Source: Cristatella mucedo
Taxonomy: Eukaryota; Bryozoa; Phylactolaemata; Cristatellidae
DNA length: 64,000 bases
Reading direction: 5' to 3'
NCBI GenBank assembly: GCA_009760855.2
Contig: WPIO01000137.1
Location: 310,001 to 374,000 of the forward strand
The translations under genes were made by a program, and so were the position numbers. Numbering within the stretch: the stretch's first letter is position 1; each line of letters starts with the position of its first letter. Of this stretch, positions 17,232-46,642 are shown piece by piece. The notes below the pieces were generated by a model, which worked only from the letters and a program-made list of their open reading frames with translations, did not search any database and was not told the DNA's origin.

Positions 17232-17325
17232 ATGGCAGCAACGACGAAAAGCTCCTGGGAAACATCAGTGAGCACGGCTGGTGCTTACGTAAGAAAGGAC
17301 TCGGTCTTTCGTGACTGGGTCAAAG
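17232..17325 (+). CDS. GHR gene A exon 1
   Basis: It has 31 codons plus one base; donor AAAG|gtgaaa. It encodes a poorly conserved N-terminus ending YVRKDSVFRDWVK. Intron 1 is only 94 bp. Confidence 0.85.
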
Positions 17326-45800: not shown

Positions 45801-46642
45801 CAGGAAGTCACTTTAGAACATGAAACCTAGATTTCGAGCTGATTCAACAGGAGATATGCTGGCAGAGCCAATTTTGAGTGTAAGTCTTTCCAATTTGTGA
45901 AACACACTGGGTTGGCCCATAACTGGTCAGTCAGTTTTATCATCGTTTAGTTTTTCCATTCATGCGCGGATGTCATCAATGCATGCAGCAAGTGAGTTGA
46001 GAGAATTTGGGGTGTTACGTTTCGTCACACTGCTAGGCGTATCCCAGGCCGAGTAAAACGTGTCCAGCTGTGGCTCAGGCACATTAAAACAGGCCAGGCA
46101 ATTAAACCAGAGGCTTAATTAAAGTGCCATCGTCGTCTGCATTTACGACCTTAGCCAAATGACAAGGTAATGACAGGTTCAGAAGCGCAGGGGCATGGTG
46201 AGAGGCTTCCATTGGTAAACATGCAGCACTCAAGCAACCAGTTTTACTGGCTGGATTGCATAGATAACTTGCCTCTGGATTAAAGCTCCATCCGGGTGGA
46301 TTCTCCAGGAACCAGTCAACGACGTCGAGAGAGATACATGCATTTAGTCCCTTAAGATGCCGTACAATAATAGTCCGGTGTGCCCATGGGCAAGCCCAAG
46401 ATACGTACAGATGGTAGCGGCCAGATTCCGGAACGAACTCTGTGCTGCCGTCAGCTGCAAAACATTAAAGTCCATGTTGCTGGGCATTATCTACAAGTGG
46501 CAAACACTATAACTTCACAGTGACCGGGCACACGCATCGCTGGAGTGACACCTTTAATCCAGTTACGGAAGGATGACTCCTTTCGCACGAAGTGACCGGC
46601 ATTAATAGGTAGACTCGTCGAAGCTTGAGCTGTCGAAGCCAT
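33707..46642 (-). CDS. Glutathionyl-hydroquinone reductase (Xi-class GST), gene B, complete, seven exons
   Basis: This is the inverted paralogue of gene A. In transcription order the exons are 46642-46552, 46454-46273, 44316-44241, 40057-39859, 39580-39487, 38239-38006 and 33802-33707. They total 972 nt and encode 323 residues. Every exon after the first equals its gene A counterpart in length, and intron phases match. Landmarks are WACPWAHR (catalytic Cys), [66 protein letters not shown] and [10 protein letters not shown]. By hand count 243 of 292 residues in exons 2-7 are identical to gene A, and no conserved site is lost, so both copies look functional. Intron 2 begins with GC instead of GT. 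Introns 3 and 6 are about 4.2 kb and contain LINEs; introns 1 and 4 are short (97 and 278 bp). The role is as for gene A: reduction of glutathione-conjugated quinones. Confidence 0.92.
34525..34690 (+). mobile_element. tRNA-derived SINE (second type), decayed
   Basis: The head is 'gggtcttagcccatgggtaa' with 'ggtgcttgctcttcacgatc'; the body includes 'tgcaagcagtgacgac'. It is in intron 6 of gene B. Confidence 0.55.
34748..34893 (-). mobile_element. tRNA-derived SINE with LINE-A-like tail
   Basis: It starts with aatataattcatttgctt and shares ccaagagaacttaatctcta, ggcgcttcacatatgcctcg and the B-box complement gggctcgagccca with 14478-14640. It ends with the A-box complement near 34885. Confidence 0.78.
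34894..35627. other. Gene B intron 6, AT-rich spacer
   Basis: AT-rich. No exon or repeat family was recognised. Confidence 0.4.
35628..36590 (-). mobile_element. LINE-A, well-preserved 3' kilobase
   Basis: The - strand has an open frame of 161 codons: [75 protein letters not shown], ending [15 protein letters not shown] 3' UTR and (ATT)n tail follow. This is the least decayed LINE-A C-terminus here and served as reference for the others. Confidence 0.87.
36591..37840. other. Gene B intron 6, unannotated part
   Basis: No exon, SINE or LINE was identified. Confidence 0.35.
37844..37883 (+). repeat. (TA)n microsatellite
   Basis: A pure TA tract of about 40 bp, 120 bp downstream (in transcription) of gene B exon 6. 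Confidence 0.95.
38006..38239 (-). CDS. GHR gene B exon 6, GST C-terminal domain
   Basis: It has 234 nt; acceptor gattgcttacag, donor CTA|gtaggt. It encodes [39 protein letters not shown] and [19 protein letters not shown]. Confidence 0.93.
38590..38730 (+). mobile_element. SINE remnant (second type)
   Basis: 'ccatgaggtaaggtgcttgt' and 'tgtattgcccattgcaagag' match the 30228 SINE with many differences; the B-box is lost. It is in intron 5 of gene B. Confidence 0.5.
39487..39580 (-). CDS. GHR gene B exon 5
   Basis: It has 94 nt; acceptor ctgtttttag, donor AAG|gtattg. It encodes [20 protein letters not shown]. Confidence 0.92.
39859..40057 (-). CDS. GHR gene B exon 4
   Basis: It has 199 nt; acceptor tcctttggcag, donor TCAC|gtgagt. 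It encodes [40 protein letters not shown] and [13 protein letters not shown]. Confidence 0.93.
40520..41300 (+). mobile_element. Decayed LINE-B with internal TA expansion
   Basis: Diverged LINE-B C-terminal blocks ([19 protein letters not shown], [10 protein letters not shown], then ...[14 protein letters not shown] and the terminal ...AYRKLSA region) are interrupted at 40989-41110 by TA-rich sequence. It is in intron 3 of gene B, in the opposite orientation to the gene. Confidence 0.65.
40989..41110 (+). repeat. TA-rich microsatellite
   Basis: A TA tract of about 35 bp, then imperfect tatataatatatattatat repeats, inside the LINE-B fragment. Confidence 0.9.
41421..41482 (+). repeat. Compound (TA)n(GA)n microsatellite
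   Basis: About 30 bp of TA followed directly by about 32 bp of GA. Confidence 0.96.
41483..42469. other. Gene B intron 3, unannotated part
   Basis: Nothing recognised. Confidence 0.4.
42470..43000 (-). mobile_element. Decayed LINE-A 3' fragment
   Basis: Landmarks in - orientation: ctgcaaaggaagcaaggtcg, tcagtcgggaataaattcca and gcacggtctgcaaaggattt. Substitutions and indels are heavy. Confidence 0.6.
43001..44240. other. Gene B intron 3, remaining part
   Basis: No exon or repeat family was recognised. Confidence 0.35.
44241..44316 (-). CDS. GHR gene B exon 3
   Basis: It has 76 nt; acceptor ttattttgcag, donor GGAG|gtacag. It encodes [20 protein letters not shown], 20 of 25 residues matching or close to gene A. 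Confidence 0.9.
44790..44935 (-). mobile_element. Decayed LINE-A 3' end
   Basis: 'acatttactgtaacggaagc', 'gatcgaatggttagta' and 'gtgacatgcacagggtcg' are LINE-A landmarks. A younger copy lies 60 bp away. Confidence 0.5.
44998..46010 (-). mobile_element. LINE-A in gene B intron 2
   Basis: About 1 kb, same orientation as gene B. The C-terminal frame is intact from [20 protein letters not shown] to [14 protein letters not shown]. Upstream blocks extend to the 'aactggtcagtcagttttat' RT segment. Confidence 0.82.
46273..46454 (-). CDS. GHR gene B exon 2, catalytic cysteine
   Basis: It has 182 nt; acceptor atgttttgcag, donor GAG|gcaagt (GC donor). It encodes [24 protein letters not shown] and [16 protein letters not shown]. 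Confidence 0.92.
46552..46642 (-). CDS. GHR gene B exon 1
   Basis: It has 30 codons plus one base; donor AAAG|gtgtca. The N-terminal half is unlike gene A, but [14 protein letters not shown] aligns with YVRKDSVFRDWVK. Intron 1 is 97 bp. Confidence 0.85.

Follow-up and report, generated by a model that had tools for sequence, protein, structure and literature searches.

The analysed window was a stretch of 64,000 nucleotides of Cristatella mucedo DNA (contig C41:310001-374000; the contig is 1.06 Mb long and belongs to an assembly of 572,011,866 bases in 688 contigs). Two genes putatively encoding glutathionyl-hydroquinone reductases (GHRs) faced each other in it, A on the forward strand (17232-30900) and B on the reverse strand (46642-33707), both complete and with seven exons each (Table 1), which bears out the facing pair described by the sequence-only reading. 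The first exon measured 94 bases in A and 91 in B, and the other six measured 182, 76, 199, 94, 234 and 96 bases in both, with equal phases at all six introns, so that the exon lengths and matching phases claimed earlier were reproduced. Those lengths had been supplied to the model search, in which AG acceptors and GT or GC donors were required; this left A with 4 open combinations and B with 2, from which the one backed by A-B homology was chosen. Both models were open throughout, with GT-AG splice sites in 11 of the 12 introns and GC-AG in the other (B intron 2), in line with the earlier description of clean coding sequences. The first AATAAA lay 817 bases past the stop of A and 1952 bases past that of B, each on its own strand. 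Scans of the whole window for tRNA genes (ARAGORN, bacterial code) and Rfam families gave no match.

Table 1. Positions of the genes (window coordinates unless a contig is named).
Feature	Position	Strand	Remarks
Gene A exon 1	17232..17325	+	94 nt, ATG
Gene A exon 2	17420..17601	+	contains catalytic Cys53 (CPWAHR)
Gene A exon 3	18093..18168	+	
Gene A exon 4	18777..18975	+	silent sites unusually close to B and C
Gene A exon 5	20146..20239	+	triad Tyr191
Gene A exon 6	26444..26677	+	triad Tyr249 and Tyr292
Gene A exon 7	30805..30900	+	stop codon ends at 30900
Gene B exon 1	46552..46642	-	91 nt, ATG
Gene B exon 2	46273..46454	-	catalytic Cys52; GC donor after the exon
Gene B exon 3	44241..44316	-	
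Gene B exon 4	39859..40057	-	93.8% DNA identity to gene C exon 4 (225-base hit)
Gene B exon 5	39487..39580	-	first triad tyrosine
Gene B exon 6	38006..38239	-	second and third triad tyrosines
Gene B exon 7	33707..33802	-	stop codon ends at 33707
A-B interval between stops	30901..33706	.	2.8 kb; contains open frame 32006-32866 (+)
Gene C	C41:386329-400905 (would-be window 76329-90905)	-	outside the window; same strand as B, 30 kb past the B 5' end

Both proteins carried the thioredoxin-like N-terminal domain and the helical C-terminal domain of GSTs (GST_N_2 and GST_C_2) above the Pfam cut-off (A and B were scanned), and chance was excluded because each of them independently matched solved GHR structures (best E-values of 1.1e-106 for A and 1.7e-103 for B). 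The best solved relatives of A were the GHR of Populus trichocarpa (PDB 4uss; 360 bits, 53% identity over nearly the full length) and YqjG of E. coli (PDB 3r3e and 4g0i; 355 bits, 55% identity), both of which shared the catalytic cysteine and the tyrosine triad. The poplar protein is a plant enzyme, whereas the genes described here form a three-gene cluster in an animal genome; the E. coli gene is bacterial and not known to have introns, whereas the Cristatella copies have six.

Conservation was judged against a reference set of 85 sequences, made up of 80 bacterial or archaeal rows picked for their likeness to A from at least 590 confirmed places, and 5 solved structures. The catalytic cysteine and each triad tyrosine were present in 85 of 85, as were the residues equivalent to Cys53, Pro54 and Trp55 of A, and A and B kept all of them. 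According to passages of PMC6345682, the catalytic cysteine and a tyrosine triad (Tyr189/247/290 in NmGHR) are among the features of the Xi class; in A the triad was Tyr191/249/292, with equivalents in B, and the spacing of 58 and 43 residues was that of NmGHR. The passages of PMC3995644 name the Xi subgroup and contain nothing on Xi in animals. The proteins of A, B and C had no match in NCBIfam, a collection geared to bacteria and archaea. The family name proposed by the sequence-only reading was well founded, both proteins matching solved GHRs with E below 1e-100 and retaining the cysteine and tyrosines, and A and B are predicted to be GHRs, that is, Xi-class glutathione transferases (GSTs). 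The cysteine of their CPWAHR motif would strip glutathione from glutathionyl-hydroquinones with the help of a second glutathione, and Tyr191, Tyr249 and Tyr292 (A numbering) would hold the substrate. Besides this reaction, a dimeric state characterises the class and would be expected of A and B.

The pair is not the complete locus: a third copy, gene C, was found outside the window by reading 164 kb of the contig. In a genome-wide Pfam search GST_C_2 was matched 8 times, including three times on C41. Protein A searched against the whole genome (E up to 10) gave 19 matches, all on C41, of which seven were exons of A and six each were exons of B and of C; this protein search scores the best candidates only, and very distant copies may escape it. 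The exons of C measured 94, 182, 76, 199, 94, 234 and 108 bases. Its six introns, all with GT-AG boundaries, were 90, 1316, 3283, 4593, 1363 and 2945 bases long. In this model the exon lengths were prescribed from those of A and B, except that three lengths were permitted for exon 1 and for exon 4 and any length for exon 7; 16 open combinations passed and the final one was picked by homology. On these gene models, three or more genes are clustered at the locus, which is thus more than a mirror-image pair. Six intron positions and phases were common to all three copies, which agrees with the intron-bearing ancestor proposed earlier.

A-B protein identity over exons 2-7 was 244/293 (83.3%), matching the earlier hand count of about 83%. 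For the whole proteins it was 258/323 in the pairwise alignment and 257/323 in the three-way alignment, in which A-C identity was 243/324 and B-C identity 255/323. Silent divergence (Nei-Gojobori dS) was 1.18 for A-B (bootstrap range 0.89-1.63), 1.16 for A-C and 0.88 for B-C; the dN/dS ratio that the sequence-only reading had asked for was 0.10 for A-B (dN 0.12), with 0.12 for A-C and 0.14 for B-C. Introns 1 to 6 were 94, 491, 608, 1170, 6204 and 4127 bases long in A and 97, 1956, 4183, 278, 1247 and 4203 bases in B, so that introns 2 to 6 differed strongly in length, as had been noticed before. DNA similarity that kept its order between A and B was confined to exons 2-7 and at most about 20 flanking bases, and the remaining matches were out of order and nearly all multi-site, in the manner of interspersed repeats. 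Apart from their exons and very short flanks, the three copies shared only out-of-order matches, nearly all of them repeated elements. The earlier statement that repeats had rebuilt the introns is reasonable, although what was observed directly is confined to the length differences, the lack of alignment and the presence of interspersed elements.

The age claimed for the duplication was upheld by an A-B dS of about 1.2 and by introns that could not be aligned, and for the same two reasons a misassembled haplotype was ruled out as the origin of the two copies. It is exceedingly improbable that any one copy is an assembly duplicate, an allele or a decaying pseudogene: the contig is repeat-rich and C has lost residues that are invariant elsewhere, but silent divergence was 0.88 to 1.18, the introns were unalignable, the frames were open and dN/dS was 0.10 to 0.14 across the three pairs. 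By these measures A, B and C are old paralogues under purifying selection.

Several repeats and neighbouring features were also recorded. Intron 6 of gene A contained 692 bases of unbroken TG dinucleotide repeat (27636-28327), and intron 5 contained the apparent remains of a hAT transposon (22460-23880), in which frame 23533-23880 matched the hAT dimerisation domain in Pfam and frame 22460-22990 had no Pfam match. Fragments of apparent repeated non-LTR reverse transcriptase families were seen at 32006-32866, 35867-36481, 45219-45605 and 59507-60169, and at 4293-5651 of sequence L013; three of these frames were scanned in Pfam and only the one on L013 matched RVT_1. Frame 32006-32866, on the forward strand between the stops of A and B, resembled other repeated frames nearby and matched no Pfam family. 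A protein tyrosine phosphatase exon was located at C41:292914-293243, 17 kb ahead of the window start.

Gene C kept the catalytic cysteine and two of the triad tyrosines, but the middle tyrosine was replaced by cysteine (codon TGC) and the histidine before the third tyrosine by glycine (GGC), changes equivalent to Tyr249 to Cys and His291 to Gly in A numbering; the complete triad was consequently absent from C. Each of these two positions was occupied by the original residue in 85 of 85 sequences of the reference set (the 80 picked for likeness to A plus the 5 structures), and C had a further cysteine where 81 of the 85 have tyrosine. Of the 93 columns with conservation of at least 95%, C departed at 9 and A and B at 5 each, an excess that was not significant for C vs. 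A (Fisher p 0.41). Private changes numbered 34 in C, 29 in A and 19 in B, and the relative-rate test gave p 0.039 for C vs. B and 0.53 for C vs. A. As far as these comparisons go, the change in C is marked in the pocket and not clearly in the overall rate. With the pocket changed at Tyr249 and His291, C probably acts on something else or acts poorly, and it is counted here as a relative by descent and not as a working GHR.

The 88-row tree united A, B and C (100/100), with B-C as an inner pair at 98/80. In the 15-row trees, bootstrap support for B-C was 71 with all columns, 92 without exon 4 and 86 without exons 4 and 5. Of 1000 bootstrap trees for each of these three sets, 705, 921 and 859 joined B with C, 274, 41 and 72 joined A with C, and 21, 38 and 69 joined A with B. 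AU tests rejected neither alternative to B-C (p 0.129 to 0.502 over the three trees). Most likely, B and C are sisters and A split first, so that A and B are probably not each other's closest relatives. The sequence-only reading had proposed an inverted duplication of an intron-bearing ancestor; the ancestor stands, but since the trees favour B with C, a single inverted duplication is probably too simple an account of A and B. That A and B are nevertheless sisters from one such event, C being an older or independent copy, appears quite improbable. They are head-on neighbours with 2.8 kb between their stops, the AU test did not reject this pairing (p 0.129, 0.149 and 0.205), and B, with the fewest private changes, resembles both other copies. 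The bootstrap counts and the 88-row tree spoke against it, however, as did the B-C dS, the smallest of the three pairs, although exon 4 pulls that value down and the bootstrap ranges overlap.

Exon 4 stood apart in its silent sites, which were compared at 214 codons with the same residue in A, B and C. Silent differences in exon 4 were 4/52 for B-C, 11/52 for A-C and 13/52 for A-B, against 72/162, 82/162 and 73/162, respectively, outside it (Fisher p 3e-7, 2e-4 and 0.014). Third-position G+C was 0.69 to 0.75 in exon 4 and 0.32 to 0.73 in the other exons. In a run-length permutation test, p was 0.005 for A-B (with the run in exon 5), 0.9993 for A-C and 0.3558 for B-C, values which by themselves do not demonstrate conversion in exon 4. 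Either gene conversion bounded by the unalignable introns or a constraint on silent sites would suffice to explain the likeness, and the copies may have traded exon 4 with one another, blurring the dating. Recent conversion over whole genes was ruled out by the high silent differences outside exon 4. As a tentative extension, and a rather doubtful one, this would be an old clustered Xi family of this invertebrate in which C, having lost the middle tyrosine and a histidine of a pocket that is otherwise invariant, became adapted to a new substrate, while exon 4 was kept alike among the three by gene conversion.

The identity of the host was read from contig C688 (21,008 bases, 20,000 of which were read), the mitochondrial genome. 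Nine of ten tested frames matched Pfam (COX1, COX3, cytochrome b, ATP6, ND1, ND3 and three antiporter-type ND subunits), and the frame taken for ND6 had no Pfam match. Frames of at least 90 codons numbered 32 under each of tables 5, 4 and 9 and 5 under the vertebrate code, so that openness alone rules out only the latter. In COX1, aligned with its best solved relative (883 bits), 10 AGA/AGG codons faced Ser (3), Ala (4), Thr (1), Gly (1), Lys (1) and Arg (0), and 2 of 2 AAA codons faced Lys (hand counts). AGR read as Ser together with AAA read as Lys fits table 5, the invertebrate code, and speaks against tables 4 and 9; judged by this mitochondrial code the host is an invertebrate animal. The mitochondrial gene order presumably resembles that of molluscs. 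C688 contained two direct copies of one stretch, with frames at 11632 and 13747 lying 2,115 bases from each other, and a single inverted copy at 3078; a long COX1 match at C166:4375626-4376390, perhaps a nuclear copy of mitochondrial DNA, was accompanied by smaller ones on C83, C549 and C299.

The Xi class is described as absent from animals in passages of PMC6345682 and, in 2024, of PMC11673678. One row of a proteomic table in PMC11036304 lists a glutathionyl-hydroquinone reductase YqjG of the quagga mussel Dreissena rostriformis bugensis, an invertebrate animal with the same annotation, known from that table row. Beyond this row, no paper on animal Xi-class genes was recognised in searches of open-licence papers. 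Many invertebrate genomes have database entries under this enzyme name. The presence of the class in an animal is new relative to the printed claim more than to the databases.

Regarding ancestry, the tree of all rows placed the animal genes with poplar and two fungi (96/92). Quick trees, scored by SH-aLRT only, grouped the animal genes with three bacteria at 23 when poplar was left out, and with poplar at 74 when the fungi were left out; the grouping with poplar and fungi also varied among the 15-row trees. A eukaryotic ancestry was therefore dropped as a settled point, as this grouping collapsed without poplar and differed among the 15-row trees. The alternative, that a bacterial gene entered an animal ancestor by horizontal transfer and gained introns later, is rather unlikely. 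The printed absence of the class from animals would suit it, as would the grouping with three bacteria, at an SH-aLRT of just 23; the all-row tree argues against it, and so do the identities of the 80 bacterial or archaeal places, none of which exceeded 59%; these 80 of at least 590 were picked for likeness to A and are a thin sampling.

Very probably, the locus is a three-gene cluster of Xi-class GSTs in an invertebrate, formed by local duplications, with A and B as putative GHRs and C with a changed pocket. A six-intron ancestral gene would have been duplicated locally at least twice, leaving B and C on the strand opposite to A; most likely A was the first to split off, and B and C parted later. 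Head-on duplicates as such are ordinary, and the cluster is ordinary in its mechanism and belongs to a known enzyme class. Intron-bearing, selected copies on a 1.06 Mb animal contig contradict the claim of absence, and bacterial contamination is a hard explanation for them. The variant C, beside two conserved copies, offers a simple natural test of the role of the tyrosine triad.
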